Of a DNA stretch of 62,912 bases, positions 25,401 through 60,755 are shown in pieces. Every line of letters starts with the position of its first letter. Position 1 is the first letter of the stretch. The position numbers and the translations under genes are program-made. The notes beneath the pieces were generated by a model. That model saw nothing but the letters and a program-made list of their open reading frames with translations, was not told the origin of the DNA and made no database searches. Origin of the DNA: Microcaldota archaeon (GTDB lineage: Archaea > Micrarchaeota > Micrarchaeia > Micrarchaeales > CABMGC01); the NCBI GenBank assembly GCA_027365175.1, contig DAHXNY010000004.1, positions 1-62,912 of the forward strand. The letters are read 5' to 3'.

Positions 25401-25742
25401 TCAGCTAAGGCCAACGAGTGCCGTACCTATCGCTATTATCAGGACGCCTATCCATCTTGCTACTCCCACTGGCTCGAGCAGTACAAAGTATGCAAGCAGC
25501 TCAGCGACAATATAGCTTATCCCTCCAAAGCCGTATGCCCAGCTTAGGTGCGTCCTTGCAAGCGTATAGAAGTATATTGCGGTGGATATTACATAGACCA
25601 GCACGCCAGCGGCTATCACCAGCACCTCAAGATAGAGCGCAGACTGAAGCAATCCTTCCTTGAAGAGGAATTGGCCAATGCCTCCTAAAGAGGTGCTGAA
25701 TACCAGGAGAACGATATAAAACAGCTTGCTATCCCTTTGCAT
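25401..25742 (-). CDS. Small four-helix transporter, SMR/EamA type
   Basis: The 113-residue protein has four hydrophobic helices and the SMR-like pattern of GIGQFLFKEG at the first loop, then HLSWAYGFGGISYIVAELLA with the duplicated EamA half-domain look, and GVARWIGVLIIAIGTALV at the end. Such proteins act as dimers in export of cationic compounds or sugars (drug/metabolite transporter superfamily). GGTG lies 5 nt before the ATG. It follows a paralogue by 8 bp, so the pair probably forms a heterodimer. Confidence 0.75.
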   Translation of the reverse strand: MQRDSKLFYIVLLVFSTSLGGIGQFLFKEGLLQSALYLEVLVIAAGVLVYVISTAIYFYTLARTHLSWAYGFGGISYIVAELLAYFVLLEPVGVARWIGVLIIAIGTALVGLS

Positions 25743-25750
25743 AATATCAC

Positions 25751-26104
25751 CTATGTGAGCGCTATCACAATTATGCCGACTATTATCAGCGCTAAACCCA
25801 AGACTCTCTTAAGCCCGAGCTTCTCCTTGAACTTAACCATGCCTATCAGCGCAACGAAGACAAATATTATCGAGAAGACCGGATACACGAATGACAATTC
25901 TCCGGATTTAAGAGCATAGAGGTAGAAGCCCAACCCTACGAGGTATACTATTATGCCTGTAATTACGCCCTTATTCCTGAAAAGCCCGAGCATCTCCCTG
26001 GGATTGAAACCAAACTTGGGCAGAGCTCCCTTGAAGAAGTACTGCGCAAGAGCGGCAAAGAAGGCAGCTATGACCGTTATTATTATGATTAAGAGCGTAT
26101 CCAT
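25751..26104 (-). CDS. Small four-helix transporter, SMR/EamA type (partner)
   Basis: The 117-residue protein has four helices, with LAQYFFKGALPKFGF after the first one, SGELSFVYPVFSIIFVFVAL in the middle and KRVLGLALIIVGIIVIALT at the end. It is a paralogue of the downstream gene, and paired SMR genes commonly build an asymmetric dimer. The ATG at 26104 is favoured because GGTA is 5 nt upstream. The substrate is unknown; with glycan genes nearby, a lipid-linked sugar (ArnE/F-like role) is one option. Confidence 0.75.
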   Translation of the reverse strand: MDTLLIIIITVIAAFFAALAQYFFKGALPKFGFNPREMLGLFRNKGVITGIIVYLVGLGFYLYALKSGELSFVYPVFSIIFVFVALIGMVKFKEKLGLKRVLGLALIIVGIIVIALT

Positions 26105-26176
26105 CACAATACCTGCTGAATATCTTCAGACCATAAACTATTATAACTTTTAATAATACCTTAAAATCGAAAGTAT

Positions 26177-26416
26177 ATGAAATCTTACGCAAACAATGAG
26201 CAGCAGCTTATGGCGGTATCATTGATAGTAGTGGCACTGGGAATAGTGGCGATAATATCCTCTCCGTTCATACTGGATTCTCCAGTTGTTTTCTACATAT
26301 GCGTAGCCCTTACAATAATAGCAGGTCTTTATCTCTCAAGGAATATCACTTATAAGGAAGGCAATCCTAAAAGAGAAAGGAAACGACCAAAGGCAAGAAG
26401 GCCTAAAAGGAGATAG
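26177..26416 (+). CDS. Small membrane protein, 79 residues
   Basis: The protein has two hydrophobic helices (AVSLIVVALGIVAIISSPFI and VVFYICVALTIIAGLYL) and a very basic C-terminal tail (KRERKRPKARRPKRR). I do not recognise the family. The tail would lie in the cytosol and could contact nucleic acid or phospholipid. The gene ends 12 bp before the start of topA, whose Shine-Dalgarno motif lies directly after this stop. An operon with topA is likely. Confidence 0.6.
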   Translation: MKSYANNEQQLMAVSLIVVALGIVAIISSPFILDSPVVFYICVALTIIAGLYLSRNITYKEGNPKRERKRPKARRPKRR

Positions 26417-26428
26417 AAGGTAGGTAGA

Positions 26429-28621
26429 ATAAACAAACTGATAATAGCAGAAAAACCAAGCGTAGCGATAAGGATAGCATATTCACTGGCAGACGATGGA
26501 AAGCCGCTGTCATATGTTACTAACGGCGTAAGGTATTATGAGGTTAGGAAGGGAGCTGACACCCTTTACATAGTGGCTGCTGCCGGCCATCTCTTCACAA
26601 TAAGGCAGCACGGAGATTCTGACGTGCCTGTCTTTGACGTAGAATGGGTGGAATCCTACAAGACCAACAAGTCTGCATACTTCACAAAGAAGTACATAGA
26701 CACGATATATGCTGTAGGCAAGAAGTGCTCATTCTACATAAACGCATGCGACTATGACATTGAGGGTACGGTTATAGGGAGCAATCTGATAAAGTATGTC
26801 GTAAATTCGAATGTCAATTCAGAGCTGCCAAAGGCAAGCGTCAAGAGAATGAAATTCTCGACGACTACAAAGCCTGACCTTGTCAAATCCTATGAGAACA
26901 TCTCCGACTTCGATTTCGAGAACTTCTATGCTGGTGAGACGCGCCACAAGCTTGACTGGATGTGGGGAATAAACCTCTCCAGGTCACTAATGAGGGCGAT
27001 ATCTACGCAGGGAGTGAAGAAGATACTCAGCATAGGGCGGGTACAAGGGCCGGCATTGGCCCTTCTTGCAGAGAGGGAGCTTGCAATAAAGGACTTCTCT
27101 CCGAAGGATTACTGGAAGGTATTCGCATTTGCAAACGGCACGGAATTCGAATCGGTAAGAGGCTCCATATTCGACGCGAAGGAAGCCGAATCCATAATAA
27201 ACAATGCCGGTAAGGAGGCAAAGGTCGAATCCGTGGAAAAAAACGTAAAAGAGCACTGGTCGTTCCCTCCATTCGATCTTACCTCTCTGCAGCTGGAGGC
27301 GAGCAGAGTATTCAAGATGGATCCTTCAAGGACCCTCGCTGTCGCGCAGTCTCTTTACGAACGCTCATACATCTCATACCCGAGGACAAGCTCGCAGAAG
27401 CTCCCATTCACGCTTAACTTCAGGAACATACTGAACATGCTCTCAAAGATTGAAGGATACAAGGAAGATGTCCTGAAGCTGATAAACGGCAACAGATTCA
27501 GGCCTCTAGAAGGAAAGAAAGCAGACGAGGCCCACCCTGCAATATATCCTACGGGAGAGGAGCCGAAGAAGCTGACTGCCGAGGAGCAAAGGCTTTACGA
27601 CCTGATAACAAGAAGGTTCCTCGCATGCTTTGCAGAGAGCGCGTCTACGGAGAATAACGAAGTGATAATAAGCATAAGCGATGAAAAGTACAGGGCTTCA
27701 GGGTCAAGGCTTCTCAAGAAAGGATGGATAGAGACATACAGATACTATACTCCAAAGACGAGAGAGCTGCCTGATTTCGGCAGAGGGGACATGCATCCTG
27801 TGGAAAAGATAGAATCAAGGGCGCTTAAGACCGAACCCCCAAGGAGATACAACAAGGCAAGCCTCATATCCACTCTCGAAGAGAAAGAGCTCGGCACAAA
27901 GGCAACAAGGGCGGAGATCATAGACACGCTGTTCAGGAGGGAGTACATAAGGAACTCGCAGATAGAGGTTACCGGGTTTGGGATGAGCATATACGACGCT
28001 CTGCATTCGTACTGCCCTGACATACTGGACGAGCAGCTGACAAGAAAGCTGGAAGAGGATATGGGCAGCATATCAAAAGGAACACTCGAAAGCGATACGG
28101 TGATAAAAGAAGGCAAGGACATAATAACGAAGATCACCTTGATATTCAAGGAGAAGCAGACTGAAATAGGGAAGAGGCTGTCCATGGGGCTGGAAAAGAG
28201 CGAGATGGAAGCAAGCATAGGCAAGTGCAAGTGCGGCGGAGATCTGATAGTGAGAAGGTCTACGGCAGGCAAGTCATTCGTGCAGTGCAATAACTGCCAG
28301 CTCTCTTATCCGCTGCCGCAATATTCATTCGTAAAGCCTACCGGGAAGATATGCGAATCTTGCGGTACGCCTATAGTCAAGGTATTCAGGAGAGGGAAGC
28401 GAGTCTTCCAGATGTGCCTGGATCCAAACTGCGAGACAAAGAAGGACTGGGGCAAGCCAAAGACAGCTGCGCAGATAAAGAGTGAACAAGAAGGAGTGGA
28501 GAAGAAAGAAGACACGCCAGCGGCTAAGAAGCCCATGAAGAAAGCCCCTGTGCGCAAGGCTCGGAAGGAAGCCGATTCAAAAAAGAGGAAAGCAAAGAAG
28601 GCTGCTAAAGCCAGTGAATAA
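26429..28621 (+). CDS. topA: DNA topoisomerase I, type IA (starts at ATA)
   Basis: The 730-residue enzyme relaxes negative supercoils. The Toprim domain opens with KLIIAEKPSVA and holds DYDIEG. The catalytic tyrosine lies in SYPRTSS (about residue 318). The C-terminus has two zinc ribbons (CKCGGD...CNNC and CESCGT...C) and a lysine-rich tail. The first conventional start (GTG 26573) would remove the essential LIIAEKPS strand. The frame upstream is closed by TAG at 26414 and contains no ATG, GTG or TTG before that strand. ATA at 26429 gives MNKLIIAEKPSVA and lies 6 nt after GGTA (26419-26422). Confidence 0.92.
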   Translation: MNKLIIAEKPSVAIRIAYSLADDGKPLSYVTNGVRYYEVRKGADTLYIVAAAGHLFTIRQHGDSDVPVFDVEWVESYKTNKSAYFTKKYIDTIYAVGKKCSFYINACDYDIEGTVIGSNLIKYVVNSNVNSELPKASVKRMKFSTTTKPDLVKSYENISDFDFENFYAGETRHKLDWMWGINLSRSLMRAISTQGVKKILSIGRVQGPALALLAERELAIKDFSPKDYWKVFAFANGTEFESVRGSIFDAKEAESIINNAGKEAKVESVEKNVKEHWSFPPFDLTSLQLEASRVFKMDPSRTLAVAQSLYERSYISYPRTSSQKLPFTLNFRNILNMLSKIEGYKEDVLKLINGNRFRPLEGKKADEAHPAIYPTGEEPKKLTAEEQRLYDLITRRFLACFAESASTENNEVIISISDEKYRASGSRLLKKGWIETYRYYTPKTRELPDFGRGDMHPVEKIESRALKTEPPRRYNKASLISTLEEKELGTKATRAEIIDTLFRREYIRNSQIEVTGFGMSIYDALHSYCPDILDEQLTRKLEEDMGSISKGTLESDTVIKEGKDIITKITLIFKEKQTEIGKRLSMGLEKSEMEASIGKCKCGGDLIVRRSTAGKSFVQCNNCQLSYPLPQYSFVKPTGKICESCGTPIVKVFRRGKRVFQMCLDPNCETKKDWGKPKTAAQIKSEQEGVEKKEDTPAAKKPMKKAPVRKARKEADSKKRKAKKAAKASE

Positions 28622-32488: not shown

Positions 32489-32634
32489 CTCATCAACATT
32501 ATATACTAAAAAGGGTGAATCCTTTTAAAGCTGATGCATTGTATCCGGCAACCAAAAAGCCATTTATCATGCAATAAGCCTTGCCTGTGCCATTTCTACC
32601 CTAAAAACAGTCTCTCATCTGCAAAAAACACTAT

Positions 32635-32647
32635 CATTATAAATCTC
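32635..32647 (+). promoter_or_regulatory. TATA box of the giant surface protein gene
   Basis: The sequence cattataaatctc lies about 40 bp before the ATG at 32681, a standard archaeal promoter distance with a short leader. Confidence 0.55.
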
Positions 32648-32680
32648 TCTCGTGTTAGATAATGCGGTTGCGCTGATAAG

Positions 32681-35600
32681 ATGGATAAGAAGAACATATT
32701 CCTCATTGGGCTTCTGCTGTTATCTTCATATTCCTTAATCGTGCATACCGCATACGCATCCTCAGGAAGCGCATCAAGCTTTCTCGGCACGGCCGCTGTT
32801 CAATTCTGCAAAGCTATAAGCATTCCAAATGCCCACATACATTCTACAAGCACCGGTGCATCCGTAACTGTAACTTATACCTGTCCATTTTCCACACTGT
32901 ACAATCCCATAACCGCAGGTGTAGGAGCAAACAGCCATATCCCACTGCCTTATGCTGGAAACCCGTACGTCTCCCCCGCTTCTCAAGTGGCGTCATACAA
33001 CCAGAAGAATGCGGCATACATGGAAACCTGCCCTAAAAGCCCTCCAACAAACCCTACAAATAACATATATTTTGTGACAGGCGCAGAGCCTTTTATAGCA
33101 GGTGACGGCTGCCAGCTTGCTTCCGCAGGTGTCAAATCCGTATTCTTACTATCAGATCTGGTGTACACGCAGCACTATGATTTTTCATTATTCGATCTTG
33201 CCCACGGCTATTCTAATGTATCTGCAGAGAACACCGCATACATGGTGCTCAAAGATGTTGCTTACTCTCCACAGCTAGAATCCGGGGCAATATCCACTGC
33301 ATACAACTCAAATTCCAACATATTTTCAGGAGTGCCTCCCCAGCCGCAGCATGGGCTATGGTCATGGTTTGCGGAGTATGCGAATTTAGCAGGTGCGCCT
33401 GCGGTGACAAAGACCACATCTGTACTTGCAGGATTGCCGATACCAAGCTTCTTCGGACTCAGCGTGCCTGCAGGATATCTTCCATATGTTGCACCTGGGA
33501 TTGGATACACGCCGCCTTCTGAGGTATACCCTATAGCATGCATATACACCTACAAGTACACCATATCCACTACACTCCAAAGCATACAGAACGCCGAAAT
33601 ACCATATCTGTACCAAACAGCCCCTCCAAGCGGCAAGACCCCAGGAACAAATGCCACATTCAATACGAATTTCCTGCCATACATACTATACAATTTCCAG
33701 GTAAAAAATCCCTCTCTTGGAAACAATCTTTATACGCTTGACCAGCTTTCATATGCTGCATACAGCCCTTACAATTACAATAACCCTAAAACAAGCGAGA
33801 TACCAATAAACATAAGCACGCCTCAGCTCTTCATGGTTTCTTACAATACCAACAAGTACCAGCAGAACTGCAATTCCGGCAATACCGGTTTCTTCGACAG
33901 TATAGGATGCTTCTACGAAAGGCATTTCGGAAGCAGCATAAACAGCAAAACCATCCTGATACCATATGCAATGCCAAACATGATCGTCAATACTATGCAA
34001 AACGAGCCCATAGCATATCCTGCGACAGGAGAGCCGACAATGTACGGCTACGGTGCAACACAGCAGCAGCTTGCAACCGCAGGAGCAAACACCGTAAACG
34101 CTCTGATCTCTATCAAAGACCCTCTTTCGATAGCGGCAATTCCAAACGATTACGTTTTCGTGCTTGCAAATACGATAGTTCCATCGAAGACCACCATCGT
34201 ACAGTCTTCATCATGCACAGTAACCCAGCCTTCATCGGGGAGCAACCTAGAGAACTTCATTCAGGGTTCATTATCAAATCTCGGGGTATCTAACTCTGCA
34301 AACAACGAGGCATTCCTCGCTGCGATAGCACAGGCATACAGCTCCACCGGGGAGGACTTCGCATACAATAATCCATTGGGCTTCGACTCGCTGCAGGGCA
34401 AAGGGTCAAACCAAGGACTGAGCGTGAACATCAAAATGCCATCTTCTCCATGCAATGATCCATATGGCACTCCTGCATACTCGTCGCCAAGCCAGGGCGA
34501 GACCGCCACTTCAGACGCATTGCAATTGTCGGTCAGCGGCAACGGAGCGACTCTTGCAACATTCAATGCGATAATGTACGGCCTGAAGAACAACGAGCCT
34601 CTTGGCTACTATACTACAAATTCAATAGCTCAGTCAGACCTGTTCAATCTCGAGACGATACAATCCCAGTCGACATCGGCTTCAGGATCAAGCGCATACG
34701 GTATAATAAGCGGTGAGCTATCGTCAACTGGCAGCAATTCTTTGGCTGCTACTGCCCTTGTTAAATGGGCTCATGGAATAACTATCTCATCGCAGAGTAC
34801 TCCACCAACAGCCGCATACGCTGGCGCAACGAACAGCATATATGTAATGCGTGTAATGAGCCAGGGCTATTACAACAACTCCGTACTTCCTCCAGGTGCC
34901 ATCCCTAACATAGCCGATACGGTAACTACCAACGATACTGCAATAGGTTCGTCAACGCATCCTGCATCAAGCGTGTGTGCAGGAACAGTGACATGTCAGG
35001 ATGTATGGACTGCTGACTGGAAGAACTACTGGACCAGCCTGATAAAACTGGAATCTGCGAATGTCTATGTAATAAATCAGATTCCAATAACCCAGTCCTT
35101 GGTAACAGGCTCCATAACAGTCACAAGTGGCATAACCATCGGTCCGCAGCCAAAGCACAATACCTGCATTCCTAGCATTGCCAATAATAACTACTGTCCA
35201 CCCCCTACGACCTCCGCCCCGAAAGGACCGGTATTCACTCCTGGAAAAACAACTGCTACCTTCACCCCAATGAACATATCCGCAGATGCAGAAGGCGATG
35301 TGTATGTAACGGGTACAATGTCGATATCAGGGACAATATCACCGTGGGTCATAAAGGTAAGCAACGCCGCAGGCAAATACACTGTAACGGGAAGCCTGCT
35401 CACCGTACCTGCAGGTTCAGGGAAATCCAGCGGGCAATCGGTGCCGCAGAACAACAACGGCAAACCACTTACACCAACAGAGATAGCAGCATCCCCTGAC
35501 GGAAAGCTTATCTTCATAACAAGCCAGCAGAGCAGCAACATATATGTATTCTCAGGAGAGACCCTGAAGTACCTCAGCACATACAATCTGGCATACTCAT

Positions 35601-59975: not shown

Positions 59976-60371
59976 ATGAGTCAGTTTGGATCGCAATTCC
60001 ACGGGAAGTCGCGCAGGAAGCTCAACGGCAGTGGCAAGAAGAAGCTGAAGAATCATGACAAGAAGAGGCATGACATGGGAGGATACTTCATAGCTACGAA
60101 GCTGGGAGATAAGAACAAGGTCAAGGAGGTAAGGGGAAGGGGCGGAGAGAGGAGAAGCAAGCTCCAGTATGCTGGATTCGCAAACCTATTGGTTAACGGC
60201 AAGTACAAGAAGACAAAGATAAAGTCGATTCTTGAATCCAAGGACAACAGGAACTTCGCAAGGCTTAACATAATAACCAAGGGTACGGTAATAGACACCG
60301 ATGATGGCAAGGCGGTAGTCATAAACAGGCCTGGAAAGGAGGGCAGCATAAACGCAAAGAAAGTAGAATAA
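59976..60371 (+). CDS. rps8e: Ribosomal protein S8e
   Basis: The 131-residue protein is the archaeal/eukaryotic S8e of the small subunit. It opens with HGKSRRKLNGSGKKKLKNHD and has GGYFIATKLGD, RGRGGERRSKLQYAGFANLL and the C-terminal ITKGTVIDTDDGKAVVINRPG. The ATG at 59976 follows GTGGT. It is the first gene of a three-gene unit in which both following genes have non-standard starts. The stop TAA directly touches the GGTG of the next gene. Confidence 0.93.
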   Translation: MSQFGSQFHGKSRRKLNGSGKKKLKNHDKKRHDMGGYFIATKLGDKNKVKEVRGRGGERRSKLQYAGFANLLVNGKYKKTKIKSILESKDNRNFARLNIITKGTVIDTDDGKAVVINRPGKEGSINAKKVE

Positions 60372-60380
60372 GGTGTTTGT

Positions 60381-60755
60381 ATACCTTCAAGAGTCTACGT
60401 ATTTGATTCCTCAAAGACAGCAGAGGTAAAGAAGCTAATGGAGTATGATCCTTATCTAGATAAGAGCAAGTCCGAAGAGGAGGTAAGCAAGCTCAAGGAG
60501 GACACGGAGGCAAACATAATATTTGCAAGGCAGGATTATAATATAAAGGACGGCATATCTATGGACTTAGAAAGGGAGAAGGGCTACCTGTGCATTTCGG
60601 CAAACCAGGAGTTCCTGGAGAAGGGGGAGGAGAAGCTGAAGAAGAGCATAGAGGGGCTGCAGCGCGCTGATGAAAAGACCGAGAACAAGGTAATAGAGAT
60701 AATAGAGGCGGAGAGGAATCAGAGCGAACAGGGGCTCGGTGCAATTTTTGGGTAA
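60381..60755 (+). CDS. Hypothetical protein, 124 residues (starts at ATA)
   Basis: I do not know the family. The product is charged and alpha/beta (SRVYVFDSSKTAEVKKLMEY at the start, then ANIIFARQDYNIKDG and a long C-terminal helix). The first ATG (60438) is 19 codons in and would remove a good beta strand, VYVFDSS. ATA at 60381 lies exactly 5 nt after GGTG (60372-60375), and no ATG, GTG or TTG is available in frame before 60438. It ends 4 bp before the UMP kinase start and overlaps its Shine-Dalgarno motif. Confidence 0.75.
   Translation: MPSRVYVFDSSKTAEVKKLMEYDPYLDKSKSEEEVSKLKEDTEANIIFARQDYNIKDGISMDLEREKGYLCISANQEFLEKGEEKLKKSIEGLQRADEKTENKVIEIIEAERNQSEQGLGAIFG

Follow-up and report, generated by a model that had tools for sequence, protein, structure and literature searches.

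The window analyzed in the present study, a stretch of 62,912 nucleotides (contig DAHXNY010000004.1 of assembly GCA_027365175.1; contig C24 in our numbering), belongs to a Micrarchaeota metagenome-assembled genome (MAG) of 795 kb in 29 contigs, hereafter G000. An open reading frame at 26417-28621 (+) was identified as a full archaeal topA, encoding DNA topoisomerase I, which is present in single copy in the genome. In profile searches it scored 642 bits against TIGR01057 (cut-off 458), covering profile positions 1-614 of 618, and Topoisom_bac and Toprim domains were recognized. Read from ATA at 26429 the gene extends over 26429-28621 (+) and comprises 730 aa, stop included. It is preceded by a gene for a small two-TM protein (26177-26416, +), which matched no Pfam family at its cut-off and whose stop lies 12 nt before the ATA, and further upstream on the minus strand by two adjacent half-size EamA/SMR-like transporter genes (25401-25742 and 25751-26125), a likely heterodimeric pair.

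After the in-frame TAG at 26414-26416 the codons AAG GTA GGT AGA precede ATA, which is followed by AAC AAA CTG, and no ATG, GTG or TTG occurs until GTG at 26573. A start at this GTG (ORF of 682 aa) would remove the first Toprim strand with its acidic residue (IIAEKPSVA), given that the Pfam match to Toprim begins at residue 7 of the stop-to-stop frame and the PDB match 6k8n aligns from LIIAEK. The original prediction, that topA starts at ATA 6 nt behind GGTA because no canonical start codon lies between the TAG and the Toprim strand, was thus accurate in its description: GGTA (26419-26422) ends 6 nt before ATA.

Comparison with topA of other Micrarchaeota, as had been proposed, supports ATA as the start. 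Of five other genomes of the genus, the codon could be read in four species, in which it is ATA (G001), ATT (G002), ATA (G003) and ATA (G005), with protein identities of 86-94%, whereas the most divergent congener (G004, L058) has a run of N just behind ATA AAC and a possible GTG 9 nt upstream, and its start is therefore ambiguous. Among about 40 distinct topA 5' ends from other genera ATG was found at exactly this codon with two exceptions, GTG in G088 and ACG in G076. In the latter (L085) topA reads TGA ACT CGC ACG AAC AAG CTC, an independent loss of ATG. Topoisomerase matches in two further genera (G011 and G010; L011 and L013) contain one in-frame TGA each.

With regard to the ALTERNATIVES at topA, three TAG stops, one per frame (26414, 26421 and 26425, within 26414-26427), lie at -15, -8 and -4 and are conserved in G001 and G002, while in G003 and G005 the upstream gene ends at -17 in another frame, so that no conserved route lets an upstream ribosome enter the topA frame. 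Mean identity between the two subgroups of the genus was 0.25 and 0.29 at -45 to -15 and 0.55 at -15 to 0, the segment of the Shine-Dalgarno (SD) site, but 0.90, 0.96 and 0.96 from ATA on, and coding constraint accordingly starts at ATA. The 3' end of the 16S rRNA of this genome is GAUCACCUC, to which AGGU at 26418-26421 offers a partial SD pairing. In genes with one unambiguous ATG the SD sits at a sharp offset of 3-5, and AGGU of topA lies at offset 4, although with 4 nt it is weaker than the SD of most of the other genes described below.

In order to learn whether topA is an isolated case, the whole genome (795,159 bases) was compared with G032, a one-contig genome of another genus, and with 655 kb of G005. 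A first loose screen returned 247 candidates, which were mostly upstream flanks aligning between close species, rRNA regions and transposase fragments, and was replaced by stricter screens, blind to SD sites, for genes lacking ATG, GTG or TTG before the conserved N-terminus. After curation by hand these gave nine genes among 457 orthologous ORFs of 100 bits or more: topA and fen1 with ATA, rnhB with ATT, a Nop56/58-like gene with GTA, PAC2, SufBD, a presenilin-like gene and uS17 with CTG, and a second gene of the window with ATA. Family names were taken from Pfam, except that 'presenilin-like' is our own reading. Weaker-scoring additions were an eS26-like gene (CTG) and the ORFs o0_1109 (CTG), o0_7019 (ATA) and o0_6308 (CTG). 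The second gene of the window (60381-60755, +) encodes a conserved protein without Pfam match, is preceded by an in-frame TAA at 60369 and by AGGTG at 60371-60375, and has ATT in G005 and ATG in G032. In fen1 the ORF opens at ATA itself directly after the stop (ggcggtgagTAG followed by ATA). The original prediction had thus missed that the start of topA is no oddity of this gene.

Most of these codons are conserved in G005, namely ATA in fen1, ATT in rnhB and CTG in PAC2, SufBD, uS17 and eS26, whereas ATA at 60381 is replaced by ATT and GTA of the Nop56/58-like gene by GTG; for the presenilin-like gene no counterpart was present in the part of G005 compared. Furthermore, fen1 has ATA in G000, G001, G002 and G005, and uS17 has CTG in all five species matched. 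A possible start codon in transition was noticed in o0_4213 (contig C22 of G000, 32581-33070, +), where ATA GTG stands behind AGGTGA and G005 has ATG.

Each of fen1, rnhB, uS17, PAC2, SufBD, the Nop56/58-like gene and the gene at 60381 has an SD at the spacing used by the ATG genes of this genome. In six genes in which the start of G032 maps without gaps onto a near-cognate codon with no canonical codon within 8, all six have an SD of 4 nt or more at offset 3-4 (interior rate 6.4%) and five have an SD of 5 nt or more at offset 3 (interior rate 0.44%), which corresponds to chances of about 7e-8 and 9e-12. However, these six were picked by hand from an SD-blind list that also holds misaligned and internal positions, and the figures should be taken as a guide rather than a strict test. 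An SD-anchored tally in the single genome was too noisy for ATA, because ATA is common in gene interiors, but this was resolved by a tally in two species: positions with an SD of 5 nt or more at offset 3 in both number 43 in start zones against 8.8 expected, with ATG 21, TTG 5, CTG 5, ATA 3, GTA 2, ATT 1, GTG 1 and others. One of the two GTA hits (o0_2994) is probably internal.

The reverse screen in G032 revealed ACG at the starts of uS4 and aIF2-alpha, the ORFs of which both open at ACG directly after a stop, as well as of TopoVI-B and a NuoK-like gene, each behind GGTG(A) at the usual offset. Since uS4 has ATG in the seven other species of that genus, the change is recent or particular to this genome; a sequencing error in uS4 of G032 alone is not excluded, though four such genes with matching SDs speak against it.

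Neither of two possible causes of relaxed initiation was found. The initiator tRNA-Met(CAU) (L124, 1719-1795) is canonical, with A1:U72 and a GGG/CCC anticodon stem, and aIF1 (SUI1), which discriminates against non-canonical start codons in Sulfolobus (PMC6237735; PMC8211752), is present in G000 and in 70 of 79 genomes of the family. A tRNA-Ile with anticodon UAU (L121, 19845-19939, minus strand), also detected in G032, occurs instead of the usual archaeal CAU-modified tRNA for AUA, and no elongator tRNA-Met was found by ARAGORN in G000.

Among alternative explanations, the most serious is a start at the CTG at 26438-26440, nine nt downstream, which would give Met-IIAEKPSVA and leave the ATA untranslated. 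This codon is NTG in all five species (CTG, or TTG in two of them), against about a third of family members, and CTG is used as a start by other genes of this genome. However, the SD would then lie at offset 12-13, outside the peak, nucleotide conservation begins at ATA and not at CTG, the N and K codons are kept with only a synonymous change, and most of the family has MNKL starting at the ATA position, so that we consider this start unlikely. A fusion with the upstream membrane protein by readthrough of TAG 26414 or by frameshifting might be suggested by the fact that in G000, G001 and G002 the upstream gene is in the same frame, separated by one TAG, but it is contradicted by the stops in all three frames and by the different frame of the upstream gene in G003 and G005, and is very improbable.

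Likewise, editing of the RNA to AUG (A-to-I in AUA, C-to-U in ACG) could be considered, as both codons are one edit from AUG and ACG in G032 fits C-to-U, yet AUU, CUG and GUA in the same genome cannot be made AUG by one kind of editing, and although no editing enzyme was looked for, we regard it as very doubtful. A sequencing or assembly error, a pseudogene or a start at GTG 26573 is the least likely and practically excluded, although a metagenome assembly is the only source for each species: five independent MAGs agree and differ from each other as real species do, the frame is open over 730 aa, and the GTG start would cost the first Toprim strand.

Hence, it is most likely, in the absence of proteomic or ribosome profiling data, that topA of this genus is translated from AUA at 26429 (AUU in one species), giving Met-NKLIIAEKPSVA, an interpretation we hold with good confidence. 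The 30S subunit is inferred to be placed by pairing of the upstream AGGU or GAGG/GGUGA-like element with the 16S 3' end at the standard spacing, and Met-tRNAi(CAU) to accept the near-cognate codon with a single mismatch (AUA and AUU at position 3, CUG at position 1, ACG at position 2), whereas GUA needs two. The N-terminal peptides expected on this reading, with Met kept or removed, are NKLIIAEKPSVAIR for topA, AVDISKLVSEVK for fen1 and ECNDKNCPVHHGLK for uS17. The gap of 12 nt to the upstream stop might add reinitiation, which in Haloferax falls to 40-60% at 13-14 nt (PMC10666635). On the other hand, AUU initiates in E. coli at about 0.3% of AUG (Hecht 2017, as cited in PMC10666635), which is low for essential genes, and the presence of aIF1 likewise speaks against this view.

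Initiation at near-cognate codons as such is known. AUG, GUG and UUG are named as start codons in a review of archaea (PMC7531240); the starts reported here share with GUG and UUG starts SD-led mRNAs and, as inferred above, the same initiator tRNA, while AUA, AUU, CUG, GUA and ACG are outside that set. In bacteria, only 2 CUG and 1 AUU were found among 61,358 ancestral AUG starts in 36 genome groups, with no AUA listed (Belinky et al. 2017, PMC5622118). At least nine of 457 conserved genes in one archaeon is far higher, with the caveat that the starts in that study were taken from annotation, which rarely admits such codons. Compensation of weak start codons by stronger SDs was described there for GUG and UUG only, whereas the near-cognate starts reported here mostly carry strong SDs (GGTGAT) at optimal spacing. 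No report of such starts in Micrarchaeota or other archaea was found in the literature open to searching, which excludes most subscription papers, and to this extent the codons and the scale in an archaeon are new.

It is probable that members of this Micrarchaeota family have an enlarged start codon set, AUA, AUU, CUG and GUA in one genus and ACG in at least one other, used routinely behind well-spaced SDs for core genes including topA, fen1, rnhB, uS17, eS26, uS4, aIF2-alpha and TopoVI-B, so that the start is defined more by the SD than by the codon. Start codon identity is treated as near-invariant in prokaryotes, and gene finders accept only ATG, GTG and TTG. If these archaea initiate core genes at AUA, AUU, CUG or ACG, their ribosome and factors tolerate codon-anticodon mismatches that others reject, which makes the question of how archaeal aIF1, aIF1A, aIF2 and tRNAi set start codon stringency accessible to comparison. 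It also means that topA, fen1, uS17 and others are likely truncated or lost in annotations of these genomes, which can bias completeness estimates and claims of missing genes.
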